DNA of 38,797 bases from Bacteroidetes bacterium MED-G21 (GCA_002457305.1 NTKG01000007.1:1-38797), one strand, 5' to 3'. Counted from the stretch's first letter, positions 19,881-32,647 are shown. A program made the numbers and translations. The notes: generated by a model not told the origin, from the sequence alone.

Positions 19881-19916
19881 AAATTCCGATTCGTTTAAGC
19901 GGGTTGGAATTTTTTT
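19881..19916. terminator. Terminator of fabH-accB-accC, overlapping the dxs stop
   Basis: AAATTCCGATTCG (19881-19893) pairs with CGGGTTGGAATTT (19900-19912) through Watson-Crick and G-T pairs, with loop TTTAAG and a following T-run. The dxs stop codon (19915-19917, minus strand) lies in the T-run, so convergent transcripts meet here. Confidence 0.75.
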
Positions 19917-21837
19917 ATATAGCAAGTTTTAATTTATTCTTGACCTGTTCTATTTTCTTTTTTATGCTTCCTTTATCATATCCGCAATCAGCGTGAAGTT
20001 GAATCTGAGTCCCATGTTCAATAAATTCATCTGGTATACCCAGTCGATATACTGAGGCATTGTATTGGTTGTCTGCCATAAACTCAATAACAGAAGACCC
20101 TACTCCTCCAGAAATACATCCGTCTTCGATAGTGATGATGTGTTCATATGTTTTAAAAACCACGTGGAGCATTTTTTGATCAAGCGGTTTAGCAAATCTT
20201 AAGTCGTAGTGTCCAATATATATACCTTCTTTCTCATATTCATTACAGACTTCAGTTGCATAGTTGCCTACATGACCCAAAGACAGAATTGCAATGTTTT
20301 TGCCAGTCCTAAGCTTACGTCCAGTACCAATTTCGATAGATTTAAACTCCGTTTTCCAATCTGGCATTACACCCTTGCCACGTGGGTATCTAATAGTGAA
20401 AGGACCGTGTTTTTTTTCTTGAGCTGTAAACATTAAATTTCTTAATTCCTCTTCATTCATAGGAGCAGAGATAATCATGTTTGGGATGCATTTAAAATAT
20501 GCGATATCAAATGAACCATGGTGAGTTGGGCCATCTTCTCCTACTAATCCTGCACGGTCTAGACAAAATATTACACTTAGGTTTTGAATAGCAACATCAT
20601 GAATTACTTGATCAAAAGCTCTTTGCATAAATGTTGAATAAATGTTACAAAAAGGAATTAAGCCTTGAGTAGCCATTCCTGCCGAAAAAGTAACAGCATG
20701 TTGTTCTGCAATTCCAACATCAAATGCCCTATCTGGTATTTCTTCCATCATATATTTTAGTGATGACCCAGTTGGCATTGCAGGAGTCACACCTACAATT
20801 TGTTTATTTTTTTTTGCAAGTTCTATGATGGTATATCCAAATACATCTTGGTATTTAGGAGCCTCATTTTTAGTTTTTGCAATACTTAATATTTTACCAG
20901 TATCTTTATTAAAGATGCCTGGAGCATGCCATTTCGTAGTGTTTCCATCTTCGGCAGGTTTGTACCCCTTGCCTTTTTTTGTGACACAATGAAGTATTTT
21001 TGGGCCAGGAATGTCTTTTAAATCCTCTAATATTTTAACTAGATGTTCTACATCATGACCGTCAACAGGTCCAAAGTATCTAAAGTTTAGTGATTCGAAA
21101 TAATTGCTTTGTTCTAGCATAGATGATTTAATGCCATTTTCTATTTTTTGAACAATAGATTGCGCATTAGGCCCAAACTTGCTGAATTTGCCAAGTAGAT
21201 CCCAGACTTCATCTTTAATTTTGTTATAAGTGTGCGATGTTGTAATGTCAGTTAGGTATTCTTTTAATGCTCCTACGTTTGGATCGATTGACATACAGTT
21301 GTCGTTTAATACAACCAGAATATTCGAGTCTGACATGCCTGCATGATTAAGAGCTTCAAAAGCTTGTCCACCGGTAAGTGCGCCATCCCCAATTACTGCA
21401 ATATGCTGTTTGTTCTTTTCATTTTTTAATGATGATGCAATTGACATTCCGAGGGCAGCTCCTATAGATGTAGATGAGTGGCCAACACCAAAAGTGTCAA
21501 ATTCACTTTCAGTACGTTTAGGGAATCCGCTAAGACCTTTGTATTTTCTATTTGTGTGAAAAATGTCTCTTCTTCCGGTAAGAATTTTATGTCCATAAGC
21601 CTGGTGTCCTACATCCCATACTAACTGGTCATAAGGCGTATTAAAGACATAGTGTAATGCAACTGAAAGCTCAACGACACCTAAGCTTGCTCCAAAATGC
21701 CCACCGTTTACCGAAACGACATCTATAATAAACTGTCGAAGTTCTTTTGATAGTTTTACTAAATCAGAGACATCTAATTTTTTTAAATCAGAAGGAGAGT
21801 CAATGTTGTTTAATATTGATTTTGTTTTTTCAGACAA
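19915..21837 (-). CDS. dxs: 1-deoxy-D-xylulose-5-phosphate synthase
   Basis: 640 residues. It condenses pyruvate with glyceraldehyde-3-phosphate, using thiamine diphosphate, at the entry of the MEP isoprenoid route and the DXP route to vitamin B6. H47 in NGGHFGASLG, H78 in WDVGHQAYGH, the thiamine-binding GDGALTGG (150-157) to NDN (178-180), and VGIAEQHAVTFSAGMA with the catalytic Glu are all visible. The pyrimidine-binding and C-terminal domains are complete. The start is TTG at 21837: an in-frame stop lies three codons upstream and there is no early ATG, while MSEKTKSILNNIDSPSDLKKL matches where the family begins. A TACATTTG box is 26 bases upstream. Confidence 0.96.
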   Translation of the reverse strand: MSEKTKSILNNIDSPSDLKKLDVSDLVKLSKELRQFIIDVVSVNGGHFGASLGVVELSVALHYVFNTPYDQLVWDVGHQAYGHKILTGRRDIFHTNRKYKGLSGFPKRTESEFDTFGVGHSSTSIGAALGMSIASSLKNEKNKQHIAVIGDGALTGGQAFEALNHAGMSDSNILVVLNDNCMSIDPNVGALKEYLTDITTSHTYNKIKDEVWDLLGKFSKFGPNAQSIVQKIENGIKSSMLEQSNYFESLNFRYFGPVDGHDVEHLVKILEDLKDIPGPKILHCVTKKGKGYKPAEDGNTTKWHAPGIFNKDTGKILSIAKTKNEAPKYQDVFGYTIIELAKKNKQIVGVTPAMPTGSSLKYMMEEIPDRAFDVGIAEQHAVTFSAGMATQGLIPFCNIYSTFMQRAFDQVIHDVAIQNLSVIFCLDRAGLVGEDGPTHHGSFDIAYFKCIPNMIISAPMNEEELRNLMFTAQEKKHGPFTIRYPRGKGVMPDWKTEFKSIEIGTGRKLRTGKNIAILSLGHVGNYATEVCNEYEKEGIYIGHYDLRFAKPLDQKMLHVVFKTYEHIITIEDGCISGGVGSSVIEFMADNQYNASVYRLGIPDEFIEHGTQIQLHADCGYDKGSIKKKIEQVKNKLKLAI

Positions 21838-21862
21838 TTTTTTTCAATTTATAATTCCATTA

Positions 21863-21870
21863 CAAATGTA
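21863..21870 (-). promoter_or_regulatory. -7 box of dxs
   Basis: On the minus strand the sequence is TACATTTG, an exact TAnnTTTG match. It predicts a leader of roughly 20 bases ahead of the TTG start codon. No convincing -33 element is seen. Confidence 0.5.
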
Positions 21871-22027
21871 GTAAAGAATGTGTTTAAAATATATTTTGTC
21901 TTGTGTTTAGTATAAAATATTTTTTACAGGCCTATTAATTATATTTTATGATAAGTTTCAGGTTTTAATTTACTATTTTCACTCATTATAAATAAGTTTT
22001 TACGTTATACCTTTTTAATTAGATGTC

Positions 22028-22783
22028 TTGAAGTTAAAAACAAATAAATTTATAGAAAGGTATTTCGATGACGATTTATCAAATGAAGAACTTGAATTGT
22101 TTCGAGAAAAACTCCAAACGGATATAAAATTCAAAGAAGAAGTTGAATTGTATGAGCAAGTATTTGGTGATTTAGTTTACAAGCGAGAACGCAAAATGAA
22201 AACTAATTTTCATGCTCTTGAACTTCACACTAGAAAATCTAAAAAGGTCTTTTTTTTTAATGGAATAATGAAAAGGGTTATTATGTTTCCCCTTTTATTC
22301 ATTGTTATTATTTTTGGTTTGAATCACTTTTCTTTTTCTTCAGAACAAGATTTTAGAATAATTTTTGAAGAATATTTTGAGCCTTATCCTAACATATTGG
22401 CTCCTATTAGTCGTTCTTCAGAATATTTAGATTCTGAGCTATCCAATGTTATGGTTTTATATGAGATAGAACAATATGAAGATGCTCTTTTAGGATTGAA
22501 TACATTAATTGATAGTACTAATGCTTATCATAATGAATTGCTTTTTTATAAAGGTTTATCATTACTTGCTTCCGGAAATTCAAGTGAAGCTGTCTCTAGT
22601 TTTGAGCTTATGGATTTGTCTTGTGATATGGAGAATCAAAGAAAATGGTATTTATCTTTGGCTTTAGGCCAATCTGGGGACGTTATTCAAGCAAAAGAAT
22701 TGCTAAATGATATTGTGTCTGACAGGAGTCATTTTATGACTTATGCAGAAGAGCTGTTAGATGAACTTTCGATAAAAGAGTAA
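22028..22783 (+). CDS. Single-pass membrane protein with anti-sigma-like N-terminus and periplasmic TPR-like region
   Basis: 251 residues. The start is TTG 22028: the frame has a stop four codons upstream and no early ATG, and the first residues already hold the motif IERYFDDDLSNEELELFREK. That motif resembles the cytoplasmic front (about 1-50) of Bacteroidota anti-sigma-like proteins, though no zinc motif is present. A basic stretch (KSKK, MKR) precedes one membrane span (about 84-99), so the N-terminus should face the cytosol. The part outside (about 105-251) is helical with TPR-like pairs (YEIEQYEDALLGLNTLI, NELLFYKGLSLLASGNSSEAV). Its 3' end overlaps the convergent CHAT gene by 27 bases. 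No sigma-factor gene is adjacent. Partner and function are inferred, not shown. Confidence 0.7.
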   Translation: MKLKTNKFIERYFDDDLSNEELELFREKLQTDIKFKEEVELYEQVFGDLVYKRERKMKTNFHALELHTRKSKKVFFFNGIMKRVIMFPLLFIVIIFGLNHFSFSSEQDFRIIFEEYFEPYPNILAPISRSSEYLDSELSNVMVLYEIEQYEDALLGLNTLIDSTNAYHNELLFYKGLSLLASGNSSEAVSSFELMDLSCDMENQRKWYLSLALGQSGDVIQAKELLNDIVSDRSHFMTYAEELLDELSIKE

Positions 22784-25756
22784 ACCAATAATTAAAATTA
22801 ATGGAATTAGAAAGTATATCTTCTTGTCCATTTTAGATTTTATGTCAATGTTATTTGTGTTTCCATAAATAACCATCCCTCCCCAGAATATTGGATTGGA
22901 AAGGTGTTCGTCGGAGGATTTAAGATATTTTATTTTAGCTTGTTGAAGAGCTAAACCTTTGTTTTTGTTATTTCTTTTTTCAAAGAATGAAGTTGTAATT
23001 TTTGATGTTGGTAAATCTGCGACATCCCACAAGCTTAAAAGAACGGCATGCGCTCCAGCATAATTAAAACTTCTAGCTAAACTTGTGACTCCTTCTCCTA
23101 AAATCATATTGCCATTTCCACTACTACAACTACTCAATACTACGAGTTTAGCATTTAATTTTATGTTTTGTATTTCATGTGCATAAAGTTCACTTTTTGA
23201 GTCTTCTTTTTTTTCTGGAGAAAGAATGAGTTTTGAGTAAGCAGAATTATTTGTGTTTTGCTCAGTATGACCTGAAAAATGAATGACTTCGTAATCAGAT
23301 ATAATTTTTAATAGATTCTTTTTAGTAGCATTTTCGTTTATTAATAAATCGCCATTTATTTCTTTTGCTACGCTATTAATTTCTTTATGTGCCTCTTTAA
23401 GAGGTGCGTATTTCGGTCCTGTTACCTTTGGCAAAATACCGAGGTAATTTTTATTTGGTTTAAGATGGTTTAATTTTTCATTTGTTATATAGTTTTTGTA
23501 TTGTATTGAATGGTTGTGAACGAGATAATTAAGTTTATTGTATTTAATTTCTTTTGGTTTTTTATTAATAAAGCAATCAAAGTTTAAAGAGTAAATATCC
23601 TTACTTGGAATGATTGTAATTTTTTGGAAGTCATCAGTTTTATGAGGCTTAAGTAATAGCATATATAATTCGTATGCTAGATCAGTATATTTCTCAATAT
23701 CTGAGTTTGTAATAGATTTATTAAACTCAAATATTTTATCTGATAAATTTGTGATAGTGTCTTCATGAAATGTTATGTTATTTTTAGAAATACCCAAAGA
23801 GTAAATATGGTCATGGTATTTATAATATTCTATAATAATCTCATTTTCACCTAATTTCTTTTGTATTAAACTATAATTAGATTCTGACTTTTTGTACTTA
23901 TGATTGAAGTAATTAGGGTATTCCTTTTCTATTCTAGAGATTAAAGATTCTAACTCTCTTTTTAATTTAAATATTTCTGATTTGATTTCTTTATTTGATT
24001 GAGATTCAGGGTTGTTTTCATTGAAAATTTGATTTTGCTTCTCAGATATTTTTCTTTTTAATAGATCTTCTTTAATTATTATTGAATCTGGAAGATTCGA
24101 ATTGTGTTTTGCATTGGCATTTTGCAACTCTTTTTTTAATAAATAGGCTTTTTCGTATTCGAAAAAATTCAGTGCGTGTTTAATGTGTTTAGGGTTATTA
24201 TCTAAATCATAAAGTTTTTTTAATGCTTGAATTGCTAAATAGAGATTTTCATCGATTTCATTGAATAGAGATAATTTTTCTGAATTGTGAAAATAGAAAT
24301 TAGTAAAAACCTCATATAATAAATTTACTTTTTTAGCGCTTTCGATAAGTTGGTATAGGTAGTTTGTGTCTTTTGTTTTATTGTAAAGTCCAAGTAGGCC
24401 TTTTTGTTTTAGAATAGAGGTACTCAATAATAGTGGCCTGGAGATGATGGCGCTTTTATAATCTTCTAGTTCATTTGTAAGTACTAAGTTTTTTTCAGCA
24501 TTTTCAAGTTCTTTTATGCATGTTTCATAGCTATGCTCTTTAAAATAACTTAAGGCGTTAAGATAATAGGCTTGTGCCAAATCATAGTTTTTTTGGTTCC
24601 AAATAGTTTTATTAATTTCTATTGATTCTTTAAGTACTCTTCTGGCTTTGTCATTTTTATTTTTATGAAAGTAAATCAATGCTAAATGATTTGATATCAA
24701 GTTAGCCAGTTCATTTTGTGGTCCATTTATTTCTTCATTGAGAGTTTTCGATTTCCTTAAAATATTTAGGGCTTTGCTGTATTCATTACTCTCTATGTAT
24801 GTAGCACCTAGGTTAAAGTATTTCCATGGGAGTTCGTTTTTGTAGTTGTTTGTTTCTACTACGTTAATAGATTTATTATGATATATTTTTGCTTGATCAA
24901 GGTCTCCGAGGTTTGTGTAATTATTTGCAATATTACTTTGAATTGTTGCAATATTGATGACTTTTTCTGGATTGATTTTAGTGAAAAGCCTCAGTGCTTC
25001 AAAATAATACTCTTGTGATTTTTCAATATCCTTTAGTTCTGATGAGATGACGCCTAATGAATTGTATATATGTGCTTTGTAAATTTCAACAGTTGATAAG
25101 TAGTCGTTAAAGTAATTTAATGCCTTTTGGAGGTGTTCTTGTGCGAGTATTAAATTATGACTGGACTTATATGAGTTGGCAAGAGAAAAGTGCGCAATGA
25201 CAATACTATTGTAGTCAACAGGTACGCTATTTAGAGATAATTTTAGTGCTTGTTGCTGAAGCTTGATGCATTTTTGAATATTTCCTATTTTTTTATGGAA
25301 AACCCCTAAAGAACTAGTATTGTGTATGATTTTTGGATGGGAAGGTTTTAGGTGTTTAATTCTTTGTTTTAGTGCTTTTTCTCCATATAAAATTGTAGAG
25401 TCGGTCTCTCCATAATGGTATTTTGCAACAGCCAAATTGTATAGGATGTCACCGTATAGTTCTAGGTTTTCTAGTTTACTGCCTTTAGATAGTTGAAGCG
25501 CTTGGTGTCCGTAAGTAATTACTTCAGATAGATTTTCAGTTTCTTTATTTATCTGACATAGTAGGCTTAAGCAGTCGAATTTATTCTGTTTGTTTTTTGC
25601 TTGGGCGAGATTATTTTCTAGATATAAAATAGCATTTTCAAACTCTCCTATTTCAGATAAAGAATCAGTAGTGTATTGGTAATTATTATATTTCTGCTCA
25701 TTTTGTCCATATATACTATTTATTAGGACAATAGATGCAATAAGTAATGTTTTCAT
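22757..25756 (-). CDS. Periplasmic TPR-CHAT caspase-like protein with C-terminal membrane anchor
   Basis: 999 residues. Signal peptide MKTLLIASIVLINSIYGQ, then about twelve tetratricopeptide-like helical pairs (about 30-480; for example AKYHYGETDSTILYGEKALK and YYFEALRLFTKINPE). A charged helical linker follows (about 530-620), then a CHAT domain (about 690-970). The caspase-type dyad is intact: H830 in IHFSGHTEQ and C877 in LVVLSSCSSGNG, followed by GEGVTSLARSFNYAGAHAV and the conserved SLWDVAD. A hydrophobic segment at about 980-996 ends RKFI and would anchor it, leaving the peptidase in the periplasm. Substrate is unknown. Its ends face a TPR membrane protein gene (overlap 27 bases), a natural candidate partner. 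Confidence 0.88.
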   Translation of the reverse strand: MKTLLIASIVLINSIYGQNEQKYNNYQYTTDSLSEIGEFENAILYLENNLAQAKNKQNKFDCLSLLCQINKETENLSEVITYGHQALQLSKGSKLENLELYGDILYNLAVAKYHYGETDSTILYGEKALKQRIKHLKPSHPKIIHNTSSLGVFHKKIGNIQKCIKLQQQALKLSLNSVPVDYNSIVIAHFSLANSYKSSHNLILAQEHLQKALNYFNDYLSTVEIYKAHIYNSLGVISSELKDIEKSQEYYFEALRLFTKINPEKVINIATIQSNIANNYTNLGDLDQAKIYHNKSINVVETNNYKNELPWKYFNLGATYIESNEYSKALNILRKSKTLNEEINGPQNELANLISNHLALIYFHKNKNDKARRVLKESIEINKTIWNQKNYDLAQAYYLNALSYFKEHSYETCIKELENAEKNLVLTNELEDYKSAIISRPLLLSTSILKQKGLLGLYNKTKDTNYLYQLIESAKKVNLLYEVFTNFYFHNSEKLSLFNEIDENLYLAIQALKKLYDLDNNPKHIKHALNFFEYEKAYLLKKELQNANAKHNSNLPDSIIIKEDLLKRKISEKQNQIFNENNPESQSNKEIKSEIFKLKRELESLISRIEKEYPNYFNHKYKKSESNYSLIQKKLGENEIIIEYYKYHDHIYSLGISKNNITFHEDTITNLSDKIFEFNKSITNSDIEKYTDLAYELYMLLLKPHKTDDFQKITIIPSKDIYSLNFDCFINKKPKEIKYNKLNYLVHNHSIQYKNYITNEKLNHLKPNKNYLGILPKVTGPKYAPLKEAHKEINSVAKEINGDLLINENATKKNLLKIISDYEVIHFSGHTEQNTNNSAYSKLILSPEKKEDSKSELYAHEIQNIKLNAKLVVLSSCSSGNGNMILGEGVTSLARSFNYAGAHAVLLSLWDVADLPTSKITTSFFEKRNNKNKGLALQQAKIKYLKSSDEHLSNPIFWGGMVIYGNTNNIDIKSKMDKKIYFLIPLILIIGLLFYRKFI

Positions 25757-25927: not shown

Positions 25928-27376
25928 ATGGATAATATGAATAGGATAGAAGTAAAAGAAGCCTTAAGACTAGAGATAAGTAATAATTTGGTCACTCTAA
26001 AAGGTTGGGTTAAAACAAAGAGGGGCAGTAAAAACGTTTCATTTATTGCTTTAAATGATGGTTCGACACTTAATAATATTCAGATAGTTGCTGAACATAA
26101 TATTTCTGAGGATACTTTAAAGTTGATTAATACTGGTGCCAGTATTTCTGTAACAGGAAAATTAGTTCAATCAAAAGGTTCAGGTCAATCTGTAGAGGTT
26201 TTAGCTGAATCTATTGACGTGCTAGGTATAGCTGATCCAGATGAATATCCATTGCAACCAAAAAAACATTCTTTAGAATTTTTAAGAGAAAAGGCTCATT
26301 TAAGATTTCGAACAAACACCTTTGGTGCAGTATTTCGTATTCGTCATGCGATGACTTATGCGATTCATAATTTTTTTAATCAGAAGGGGTTTTCGAATAT
26401 ACATACCCCTATAATTACTGGTTCGGATTGTGAAGGTGCAGGTGAGATGTTCGCTGTAAGTACTTTAGATAAAGTCAACACTCCATTAACGGAGCAGGGA
26501 GATGTTGATTATTCGAAAGATTTTTTTGGTAAAGAGACCAATTTAACTGTATCTGGTCAGTTAGAAGCTGAAATGGCAGCATTAGCACTTGGTAAAGTTT
26601 ATACTTTTGGCCCAACATTTCGTGCAGAAAATTCTAATACTTCTAGACATCTCGCAGAGTTTTGGATGATTGAGCCCGAAGTGGCTTTTGCGGACTTAAA
26701 TGAAAACATGAGCCTTGCACAAGATATGCTTCAATATTTATGTTCATATGCGTTAGATAATTGTAAGGATGATATAGCGTTTTTAGATAAACGTTTACAG
26801 GAAGAGGAGAAACACAAGAAAAAAGAAGAGCGCCAAGAAATGGGGCTAATTGAGAAGCTTAAATTCGTGGTGGAAAATGATTTTGAACGAATTAGCTACA
26901 CAGAGGCTTATGATATTTTAAGGAATTCTAAGCCTAATAAGAAGAAAAAGTTCCAATATCTTATAGAGGAGTGGGGTGCTGATTTTCAGTCGGAGCATGA
27001 AAGGTATTTGGTAGAGAAGAAATTTAAAAAGCCTGTAATTATTACTGATTACCCAAAAGATATAAAGGCTTTTTATATGCGTATGAATGATGACGGTAAA
27101 ACTGTTCGTGCTATGGATGTTTTGTTCCCTGGTATTGGCGAAATTATTGGTGGCTCGCAAAGGGAAGAACGATTAGATGTACTTAAAGAAAGAATGAAAG
27201 AGATGGATATTCCTGAAGACGAGTTATGGTGGTATATTGATTCTAGAAATTTCGGTACAGTTCCTCACAGTGGATATGGATTAGGCTTTGAGCGTTTGGT
27301 TTTATTTGTTACTGGAATGGGTAATATTAGAGATGTCATTCCTTTTCCAAGAACTCCAAACAATGCAGATTTTTAA
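25928..27376 (+). CDS. asnS: Asparaginyl-tRNA synthetase
   Basis: 482 residues. This class II enzyme charges tRNA-Asn. An OB-fold anticodon-binding domain (about 1-110) has [21 protein letters not shown]. Class II motif 2 is [19 protein letters not shown] and motif 3 is [16 protein letters not shown], followed by [17 protein letters not shown] at the end, which distinguishes it from the aspartyl enzyme. A charged insertion (about 290-310, [12 protein letters not shown]) occurs in Bacteroidota versions. Since this organism charges Asn directly, a GatCAB route for tRNA-Asn is not required. Two ATGs are possible (25928 and 25937). rpoN starts five bases after the stop. Confidence 0.97.
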
Positions 27377-29284: not shown

Positions 29285-32200
29285 ATGAATAAGATTTTAT
29301 TTTTCATTAGCTTAATTACATTAAATAGTTTTGCTCAAAATAGTTTTTTTGATATTATTTCAAATTCTAAAAAAGCCAGTCATTTGCTTCTTACTATTGG
29401 TGATGTAGAATTTAGAAACACAGAAAATAGAGGTGAATTATTTACTGAGATTCATATTGATGGGTTTTCAAAATCTTATGATTTAGGTAATCCGGACTTG
29501 CCAGTATATTCTAAATTGATAGAGATTCCTTCCAATGGAGATGTTTCTATCTCTATTATTAATAAAACTGAAAGCCATATAGATTTATCAGGTATAGGGT
29601 TTCCAGACAAACTGATCCCATCTCAACGTTCTATATCTAAGAGCGAAGACCCTACTCTTGTTGATTTTAAATTTAATGAAAAGGTTTATTCGACTGATGA
29701 ATTTTATGCGAATGAATTGATAAGTGTCGAGCGATTAGGGATTATGAGAGGTAGAACTATAGCACGAATTAAAATTTCACCTTTTGCATATAATCCTTTG
29801 ACACATTCTCTAAAGGTCATCGAGGATTTGGAATTTAAGGTTGAATATTCATCAAATATTCAACCCCCAAATAATGCTCACTATTCGAGAGTATATTCAA
29901 CAAATTTCTCAAAATTAATTAACGCAGATATTCATTCAAAGAATGATTTTACAAGTTTGCCTATAAGAATGATTATTCTTTCTGACCCTATGTTTGAAGA
30001 AGAATTACAAGAATTTATAGCTTGGAAAACAAGATTAGGATTTGACGTTATTGAAGCATACAAAGGAGATGACGGTGTTGGAAATACAAAAGAATCTATG
30101 AAGGCTTTTGTTCAGTCCTATTATGACAATGCAACAGCGGAAGAACCAGCTCCTACGTATTTGTTAATTGTAGGTGATCACGAGCAAATACCTAGTTTTC
30201 AGATGGGCAATGGTAATTGGGGAGGTCATACTTCTGATATGGTTTACTGTGAGTTTGACGGGAATGGGGACTATTTTCCTGAAATGTATTATGGACGATT
30301 TTCTGCCAGTACAGTAAATGAATTGATTCCTCAGATTGATAAAACATTAGAGTATGAACAGTATACCATGCCAGACCCATCCTATTTAGATGAGGTTTTA
30401 TTGGTTGCAGGAGTTGACCAGAGTATGGCTATGATTCATGGAAATGGACAAATTAACTATGGAACAGATTATTATTTTAATACAGATCATGGATTAACCT
30501 CATATACTTTTTTGTATCCTGAGTCTGGAAATTCTGCATCAGAGCAGGAAATAATTAATGAGATAAGTAAAGGAGTTGGATATGCAAATTACACTGCTCA
30601 TTGCAGTCCTGAGGGCTGGGCTGAACCTGCTTTTCTTGTAAATGATGTAAGTGGATTAGACAACCAGAATCAATATGGTTTATTGATTGGTAATTGTTGT
30701 AATTCTAATGAATTTGCTGGAGTAACATGTTTAGGTGAGGCATTACTGAGAACACCAAATAAAGGAGCTGTTGGTTATATTGGGGCAACAAATAGTACCT
30801 ATTGGGATGAAGATTTTTATTGGAGTGTTGGGAATGGAGAAGCGGTTGTTAATCCTTCTTATGAAGAGACGGGGCGTGGTGTTTATGATTGCAGTTTTCA
30901 TGAAAATGATGAGAGTGAGGAGACCTGGTCGATTACTCAAGGACAAATACTCCATGCTGGTAATCTTGCTGTATCCGAATCAAATGCAGACGATGAGTAT
31001 TATTGGGAGATTTATATGTTAATGGGAGACCCTACCGTACTAACTTATTATGGTGTGCCTTCAATCTTATCAATTAATCATCCTGAGGTATTGCCTATGG
31101 GCTCCAATTCAATTAATATTTCTTCAGAGCAACATACTTATGTAGCTGTTAATCAGGGTGGCGTTTTATTAGATGCTTCTTATACCGATGCGTCTGGAAA
31201 TGTGATTTTAAATTTCGATCCTCTTGATTCAATGGTACCTTTAGAAATTGTAGCTAGTAAACAAAACAAGCAAGTTTATATCCAGGATGTTAATATTATG
31301 TCTGCAGATGCACCGTTTGTTGTTTTTTCTGAATTGTCTATTAACGGTACTGCAGGAGATACTCAAGTTAATGGTGGAGAAAGTTTTTCTGTTGATGTTG
31401 AGTTGCAAAATTTTGGAATGGTTGAGACTGGAGACTTGCTTATGGAGGTTTCAACTGATAATCCTTATGTTAATATCTCATCTGAATCATTAAGTTTTGA
31501 TGGATTAGGAGCAGCGGATACTTTGACATTAGCAGATGCTGTGTCTATTGATTTAATTGGCCCAGTTGAAGATCAAGAAAATATTGCTTTGACTTTTACA
31601 ATTTCTGACTCCTCTGGAAATATTTGGGAGACATATGGAAGTTTTACAGTAAATGCTCCAGATATAGAGTTCATTTCTCATACAATAGATGATGCTGATG
31701 GAAATGGATTTATTGACTTTAATGAGTCAGGTGTTTTAAATGTTACACTTGCTAATGTTGGGCACCTAAATAGCTTAGATGGGCTTGCAGTGGTGAGTTC
31801 AGATTTCAGCGCTCTGCAAATTAGTCAAGATTCAATTTCATTTAGTCCTATTAATGAAGGTTCTGAAGTTGTTATATCAATTCCAGTTTTTCTAGATGAA
31901 ATGGCTCCTAATGGAGAGGATTACCAGATATACATTGTGGCCACTACTCAAGATAATTATACTTGTGATTATTTAGTTAATCTTAATACGTCTAATTGTT
32001 CATTGGGTTCATTTGAGGTTCAGGTCAATCTTACAACTGATGGTTTCCCTGATGAGATATCCTGGACACTTGCGGATATTAACGAAACTGTTCTTGGAAA
32101 TGCCCCTTTTAACTCTCTACAAGAAGAAACCAATTACGAAGAGGTGTTTTGTGTAAATAATAATGCATATTTAACTTTTGAGATTATAGACGACTATGGT

Positions 32201-32647
32201 GATGGATTACTTTGGGGAGGATATGAGATTATAGTATGTGATCAAGTGATAGCATCTGGAAGTAATTACGGAGATGGAGAAACAATTTCTTTTATTGCTG
32301 GTTGTGATCAGTCATTAACTGTCGGATGTACTGACCCTGAATCATCAAATTATGATGAAAATGCAATTATTGATGATGGCTCTTGTGAACAATTAGGAAT
32401 AAATGAGTTAATTGAACGCATTAGTATTTATCCAAACCCAGCCAGTGATAATATTCTTATAAATTATGGCGGAGCGGAAGTAACTTCTATTAAAATCATT
32501 GATATGACCGGTCGTGAAGTTTTAACAAATTCATTAAATAAACAAGTAAACAAGATTTATCTTAATGATTTGGAATCAGGGACTTATTTTGTGAAGTTCA
32601 ATTTTATAAACGGTAATCATATTATTAAAAATCTTATAATTCTTTAA
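29285..32647 (+). CDS. Secreted gingipain-family (C25) cysteine peptidase with type A T9SS sorting domain
   Basis: 1120 residues. Signal peptide MNKILFFISLITLNSFAQ. A C25-type propeptide (about 20-200) has LGNPDLPVYSKLIEIP. The catalytic domain (about 225-560) starts LPIRMIILSDPMFEEELQEF, with YLLIVGDHEQIPSF. Catalytic H439 lies in NYTAHCSPEGW and C472, second of the pair C471-C472, in GNCCNSNEF; their spacing of 33 equals that in gingipains. Ig-like regions follow (about 600-900), then a DDYGDGL module (about 904-1015) shared with the adhesin, a CTDPESSNYDENA...DDGSC calcium-loop-like motif, and the type A sorting tail (ISIYPNPASDNILINYG, GTYFVKFNF). Exported by T9SS; proteolysis of external protein is inferred. 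PorU is unlikely: no porV neighbour and different N-terminus. Confidence 0.9.
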   Translation: MNKILFFISLITLNSFAQNSFFDIISNSKKASHLLLTIGDVEFRNTENRGELFTEIHIDGFSKSYDLGNPDLPVYSKLIEIPSNGDVSISIINKTESHIDLSGIGFPDKLIPSQRSISKSEDPTLVDFKFNEKVYSTDEFYANELISVERLGIMRGRTIARIKISPFAYNPLTHSLKVIEDLEFKVEYSSNIQPPNNAHYSRVYSTNFSKLINADIHSKNDFTSLPIRMIILSDPMFEEELQEFIAWKTRLGFDVIEAYKGDDGVGNTKESMKAFVQSYYDNATAEEPAPTYLLIVGDHEQIPSFQMGNGNWGGHTSDMVYCEFDGNGDYFPEMYYGRFSASTVNELIPQIDKTLEYEQYTMPDPSYLDEVLLVAGVDQSMAMIHGNGQINYGTDYYFNTDHGLTSYTFLYPESGNSASEQEIINEISKGVGYANYTAHCSPEGWAEPAFLVNDVSGLDNQNQYGLLIGNCCNSNEFAGVTCLGEALLRTPNKGAVGYIGATNSTYWDEDFYWSVGNGEAVVNPSYEETGRGVYDCSFHENDESEETWSITQGQILHAGNLAVSESNADDEYYWEIYMLMGDPTVLTYYGVPSILSINHPEVLPMGSNSINISSEQHTYVAVNQGGVLLDASYTDASGNVILNFDPLDSMVPLEIVASKQNKQVYIQDVNIMSADAPFVVFSELSINGTAGDTQVNGGESFSVDVELQNFGMVETGDLLMEVSTDNPYVNISSESLSFDGLGAADTLTLADAVSIDLIGPVEDQENIALTFTISDSSGNIWETYGSFTVNAPDIEFISHTIDDADGNGFIDFNESGVLNVTLANVGHLNSLDGLAVVSSDFSALQISQDSISFSPINEGSEVVISIPVFLDEMAPNGEDYQIYIVATTQDNYTCDYLVNLNTSNCSLGSFEVQVNLTTDGFPDEISWTLADINETVLGNAPFNSLQEETNYEEVFCVNNNAYLTFEIIDDYGDGLLWGGYEIIVCDQVIASGSNYGDGETISFIAGCDQSLTVGCTDPESSNYDENAIIDDGSCEQLGINELIERISIYPNPASDNILINYGGAEVTSIKIIDMTGREVLTNSLNKQVNKIYLNDLESGTYFVKFNFINGNHIIKNLIIL

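Follow-up and report, generated by a model that had tools for sequence, protein, structure and literature searches.

A predicted anti-sigma protein and TPR-CHAT peptidase gene pair, sigma-orphaned or decaying, as a putative retained part of a Bacteroidota envelope-signalling module

Single-pass anti-sigma factors can be subject to regulated proteolysis across the inner membrane, as in the case of DegS/RseP-RseA-RpoE and RsiW (discussed in PMC10028731). In the type III-E CRISPR Craspase, the peptidase Csx29 cleaves Csx30, a protein that binds and inhibits CASP-sigma (PMC10028731), and in the CalpL-CalpT-CalpS system, a protease cuts an anti-sigma factor, freeing the sigma factor (PMC11229360). 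In Myxococcus, DdvA is the transmembrane anti-sigma factor of DdvS, which controls a CBASS/CRISPR island (PMC4374960, PMC12288465).

Here, we analyze a gene pair in a 38,797-nucleotide stretch of DNA from Bacteroidetes bacterium MED-G21 (hereinafter, the window) that, judging from its sequence and that of its relatives, is a retained part of a conserved envelope-signalling module of Bacteroidota, which comprises an ECF sigma factor, a TPR anti-sigma protein and a TPR-CHAT peptidase. The explanation that we favour, with moderate confidence in the whole, is that the CHAT protein cuts the anti-sigma protein so that the sigma factor is freed, and that, in this genome, the sigma gene was deleted, leaving a pair that is either re-partnered or on its way out. 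In the open-licence literature, we found no description of this Bacteroidota module; the likely sources lie outside that literature. The features of the locus are as follows.

19915-21837, minus strand: dxs, the left boundary of the site, syntenic in relatives
21838-22027: 190-bp gap separating dxs from the anti-sigma gene, the site of the ECF sigma gene in relatives
22028-22783, plus strand: gene for an anti-sigma-type single-pass membrane protein, 251 aa, TTG start
22757-22783: 27-bp overlap of the 3' ends of the two convergent genes
22757-25756, minus strand: gene for a predicted TPR-CHAT caspase-like peptidase, 999 aa
25757-25927: region upstream of the CHAT gene, common to asnS
25928-27376, plus strand: asnS, the right-hand boundary of the site, with rpoN behind it

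Both open reading frames and their overlap, as given in a preliminary description of this DNA, were confirmed. The 251-codon frame opens with TTG and has an in-frame stop just before it; the ATG located 6 bases upstream was rejected as the start because it lies in another frame that meets a stop after two codons. The chance that a random 999-codon frame stays open at 33% GC is about 4e-34, and the respective gene is the only CHAT gene in the window's MAG (72.6% complete). The region shared by the CHAT gene and asnS contains the string TTTGGTA-N-TATTTTTGAT (with one-base variants), which is also present upstream of CHAT in two genomes of the same family (G008 and G010) and could be a promoter of either CHAT or asnS. 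This string, again with one-base variants, is kept even beside the CHAT remnant of a third genome, G011. Elsewhere in the window (29285-32647), a by-eye reading of the translation suggests a secreted protein of 1120 aa that has a gingipain-like region and a C-terminal tail of the T9SS type, and a similar large protein is encoded in the same place in G010 and G011. Neither the 251-aa nor the 999-aa protein matched any of the PADLOC 2.0 models, so that the pair was not assigned to a known defence system, and the search against NCBIfam yielded only TPR-type cross-matches far below the cut-off.

The 999-aa protein contains a CHAT domain (Pfam PF12770, residues 693-966, E 8.7e-43, 147 bits against a cut-off of 24), with TPR families matching N-terminal of it. 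The preliminary description had noted the dyad H830/C877 with intact surroundings, and these residues, together with H826, are indeed invariant in 28 homologues, down to 17% identity. The signal peptide, TPR array and C-terminal anchor reported there hold up as well: a hydrophobic, signal-like N-terminal segment and a TM anchor (978-998) are visible in the sequence, the TPRs are recognized by Pfam, and a C-terminal TM was scored by hydropathy in 50 of the 61 CHAT homologues. The best Foldseek matches of the AlphaFold model (pLDDT 83.8) are Csx29, DdvA and separase (E 9e-15 to 6e-13, TMt 0.37-0.61); DdvA provides the second and third best matches, and H830 and C877 align with a His and a Cys in DdvA. 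With its TPR-CHAT fold, PF12770 membership and His/Cys dyad, the protein is predicted to be a caspase-like peptidase.

The facing 251-aa protein was modelled by AlphaFold (pLDDT 85.8) with helices at 5-13, 19-31 and 33-69, a TM helix at about 86-101 and TPR helices at 137-249, so that the predicted layout includes a cytosolic helical domain (1-70), a single TM segment, a juxtamembrane loop (117-136, including R129) and a periplasmic TPR domain (137-249). The PDB matches of the model are TPR proteins. When the single sequence was compared to Pfam, every match was below the cut-off, with no match to an anti-sigma family; hence, its designation as a TPR and anti-sigma protein is based on the model, the relatives and the gene context, and on these grounds the earlier reading of a single-pass protein with an anti-sigma-like N-terminus and a TPR-like outer part is supported. 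Both the topology and the N-terminal domain, a putative sigma-binding domain, fit a single-pass anti-sigma factor; the domain lacks cysteines and therefore is not of the zinc-binding type. A similar N-terminal domain occurs at three other loci (L155, L156 and L157), each time behind an ECF-like sigma gene and with a differing outer part, and the presence of the same domain in sigma-linked proteins with other outer domains supports its assignment as the probable sigma-binding part. In these fusions, the proteins are 969, 744 and 343 aa long (L155 643-4106, L156 1077-3881 and L157 1142-2725, respectively).

Used as a single query, the 251-aa protein retrieved no relatives, and a whole-genome search of 396 Flavobacteriales genomes, in which full-length anti-sigma matches were counted, was employed instead. 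The anti-sigma protein was found in 50 genomes and the CHAT protein in 52, with both present in 48 (Fisher 1.6e-54, a value that is overstated because the genomes are kin by descent and not independent, although the pattern nonetheless spans several families). Thus, co-occurrence is nearly perfect in both directions (48/50 and 48/52), and the genes are usually neighbours: among 70 anti-sigma genes, 63 have a CHAT gene within 15 kb, either convergent and within 1 kb (27) or at 1-15 kb and mostly divergent, the arrangement of genus g7 (36), and the remaining 7 lack one within that distance on the contig. The convergent pairs overlap in 20 of 26 cases, by 4-34 bp. In a set of 63 anti-sigma loci that includes the window, G003 and G185, an ECF sigma gene lies directly upstream of the anti-sigma gene in 57; the exceptions are these three and another three in which a sigma gene is found at a distance of a few kb. 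At the dxs-asnS site of G008 and G010, an ECF sigma gene of 181 codons is directly followed by the anti-sigma gene, with CHAT convergent and overlapping by 24 bp; the same gene order, with a 4-bp convergent overlap, is found in a genome from another family (G018). The signalling pair that the preliminary description had proposed is thus supported by the relatives, as is its remark that the lack of an adjacent sigma gene is unusual. Neither of the two outcomes named there as refuting the proposal, a lack of co-occurrence or constant pairing with another protein, was observed. The idea that a membrane protein and a CHAT protein with no relation to each other have come to lie side by side by chance could draw on G035, where the sigma/anti-sigma pair sits beside dxs and CHAT is on another contig, but it is refuted by the co-occurrence and by the repeated convergent overlap in several families, and we assign it a negligible probability.

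A profile of the module sigma matches the solved ECF sigma factors SigW and SigE (E 3e-4 to 6e-4); given that the Pfam scores are mostly below the cut-off, the module sigma factors appear to be a divergent group. The three-gene module is widespread in Bacteroidota: scanning named genomes with the CHAT profile detected it, in convergent, co-directional or divergent orientation, also in Saprospiraceae, Chitinophagales, Belliella, Agaribacillus and others, and the named loci include Gelidibacter japonicus and Aquimarina. The correlation between anti-sigma and CHAT distances is weak (Spearman 0.24, reached by 64 of 2000 permutations, with species history uncorrected) and is not used here as evidence.

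In genus g7, where sigma and anti-sigma are divergent from CHAT, the module region includes extra genes (L147 1479-9607 and L148 2055-10056): these code for a DUF4234-like protein of 99 aa, a putative lipoprotein and a PKD/DUF7619/DUF7849 protein, and the gene located behind CHAT encodes a small aspartyl protease of the retropepsin-like type (PF13650). A second orphan anti-sigma gene, in G185 (L149 6054-7538), has lost both sigma and CHAT, with the aspartyl protease gene kept alongside. Two or three CHAT genes form side-by-side clusters at some loci, in convergent (L060 4960-10771) or tandem (L073 3440-13937 and L152 4306-13108) arrangement.

Within the window's family, the dxs-asnS site presents a graded series, from the intact module in G008 and G010, through the window, which has lost sigma, to G003, where both sigma and CHAT are lost and the anti-sigma gene stands alone, and G011, with only a CHAT fragment; the site is empty in six genomes (G001, G002, G004, G006, G007 and G009), including a member of the window's genus, G001, in which dxs and asnS are 123 bp apart. 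From this decay series, it follows that the missing sigma gene is a lineage-specific loss. The intergenic sequence that lies on the dxs side of sigma in G010 is still matched by the first part of the 190-bp gap, and no sigma remnant was found in the gap (best tblastn E 0.38). In the MAG as a whole, a close homologue of the module sigma was detected neither next to the anti-sigma gene nor elsewhere, although a translocated copy remains conceivable because the MAG is 72.6% complete. The pair in this genome, then, is either sigma-orphaned or decaying.

Decay would mean that, after the sigma loss, the anti-sigma and CHAT proteins have no signalling output and are heading for deletion. That every stage of such a process is represented in the family, together with the TTG start, makes this a serious reading, if one toward which we lean somewhat less than even. 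Relative to dxs, the anti-sigma distance is 9.2x for the sigma-less pair and 5.2x for sigma-bearing genomes, that is, raised about 1.8x, a rough estimate from few taxa; the longer anti-sigma branches in the two sigma-less genomes are as expected under some relaxation. The CHAT branch of the window, in an equally rough comparison of few taxa, shows no clear rate increase (5.7x relative to dxs against 5.5x in sigma-bearing relatives), which speaks against decay, as do the two intact open reading frames and the retention of the catalytic residues and of the anti-sigma N-terminal domain. Between the window and the likewise sigma-less G003, the anti-sigma proteins are 57% identical in the N-terminal domain and 52% in the TPR part, compared to 74% and 70%, respectively, for a sigma-bearing pair, so that the ratio is about the same, and divergence by codon position follows the order pos3 > pos1 > pos2 in both genes. 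Collectively, the rates, domain identities and codon positions appear to argue against long-standing pseudogenisation, which does not imply current function.

Under another possibility, the partner of the pair is a sigma factor whose gene lies elsewhere, which could be the original one after translocation or a different ECF sigma factor. The incompleteness of the MAG and the apparently continuing constraint on the N-terminal domain are compatible with such an arrangement, and the genome encodes two generic ECF sigma factors. However, these two genes, considered as candidates for the module sigma, were rejected given that they score like the generic ECF genes of module-less relatives, and G003, a 94% complete genome, also lacks a close homologue of the module sigma, so that we regard this possibility as doubtful.

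Returning to the explanation favoured here, in the complete module, the N-terminal domain of the anti-sigma protein would keep the sigma factor at the inner membrane. The TPR-CHAT protein would be anchored in that membrane with its peptidase in the periplasm, where an envelope cue would switch it on via the TPRs; from hydropathy and flanking charge, we infer that the TPR and CHAT parts of both proteins are on the same side of the inner membrane. The activated CHAT domain would then cut the anti-sigma protein in the exposed loop between the TM and the TPRs (117-136, near R129), and further, RseP-type proteolysis would free the sigma factor. RseP scored above the cut-off in 7 of 11 genomes of the family, including the window's genus (TIGR00054 search); in the window's incomplete MAG, no RseP was above the TIGR00054 cut-off, and S2P (PF02163) had no match. 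With the sigma gene deleted, the pair in the window's genome would feed another sigma factor or else be disappearing.

Between the TM and the TPRs, the anti-sigma homologues share an extended loop with the pattern LFxxYFxPYxNxxxPxxRG, the Arg of which (R129 in the window) is found in 51 of the 63 homologues; the AlphaFold model shows this loop as unstructured. Accessible, conserved and adjacent to the membrane, the loop is the natural place for a first cut, which may fall there or after the Arg. In G003, which lost CHAT and sigma, the Arg is replaced by Ser. One clade of CHAT-linked anti-sigmas has Met (DPGLPTTMS) where others have Arg, a few other anti-sigmas have Lys, Leu or Ala, and the Arg is retained in G185, a genome without CHAT; the Met clade, the other exceptions and the CHAT-less G185 weaken the case for Arg as an obligatory cut site. 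The clade with DPGLPTTMS/T in place of the PxxRG loop (L050, L122, L124 and L150), in which CHAT is mostly co-directional, possibly reflects a changed protease specificity.

Cleavage might not be involved at all if the two TPR proteins join in the periplasm to make up a sensor complex in which the CHAT domain binds a ligand or plays a regulatory role, as maybe it does in the one-chain anti-sigma DdvA. The TPR nature of the outer parts of both proteins would suit such a complex, and in DdvA the CHAT-type domain belongs to the anti-sigma chain itself, but the invariance of the His/Cys dyad in distant homologues is hard to explain without catalysis, which makes a non-cutting CHAT rather improbable in our view.

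The closest parallels of the predicted module differ from it in their organization. The Craspase likewise combines an ECF-type sigma factor with its inhibitor and with a TPR-CHAT peptidase that has a His/Cys dyad, and Csx29 is among the closest folds; however, Csx29 is bound to an RNA-guided Cas effector that activates it (PMC10028731), whereas the peptidase of the Bacteroidota module is predicted to be a periplasmic protein with a membrane anchor, and the inhibitor is a transmembrane protein. No Cas7-11/gRAMP or other Cas gene was found beside the window pair, the tested neighbours being housekeeping and regulatory genes. DdvA/DdvS of Myxococcus xanthus (PDB 8rot, 8rw5) shares the membrane anti-sigma, the ECF sigma partner and the TPR-CHAT part, but DdvA is a single chain, whereas here the anti-sigma protein, with its own TPRs, and the TPR-CHAT protein are encoded by separate genes on opposite strands. 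The proteolytic release of a sigma factor, which in the Bacteroidota module is a prediction, is common to CalpL-CalpT-CalpS, where the protease is a cyclic-nucleotide-activated SAVED-Lon protein (PMC11229360), as opposed to a periplasmic TPR-CHAT protein. In the DegS/RseP-RseA-RpoE and RsiW type of pathway, the first cut is made by the PDZ serine protease DegS, a role that would fall to CHAT in the module described here. Separase (PDB 9hma, 7nj1, 5u1s) has in common the clan-CD fold and the helical-repeat array, but it is a eukaryotic cohesin protease, and the pathways are unrelated.

Thus, the Bacteroidota module resembles the Craspase branch and DdvA in its predicted working but is a member of neither, given the lack of a visible Cas partner and a protease that is encoded separately and anchored in the membrane. 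The module is common enough to be tested in culturable Flavobacteriaceae; the conserved loop offers a specific candidate for the cut site, and natural losses of each part are available from the decay series of a single family. Tentatively, and with the odds against so specific a scheme, it might be a membrane-embedded, CRISPR-independent counterpart of the Craspase that cuts a TPR anti-sigma at the juxtamembrane loop, with DdvA as the fused form and Csx29-Csx30 as the RNA-guided form, and with the output in the window's lineage rewired to another sigma factor after the loss. If this is true, the RNA-guided anti-sigma proteolysis by the Craspase would be one branch of a commoner theme, in which TPR-CHAT peptidases switch ECF sigma factors.
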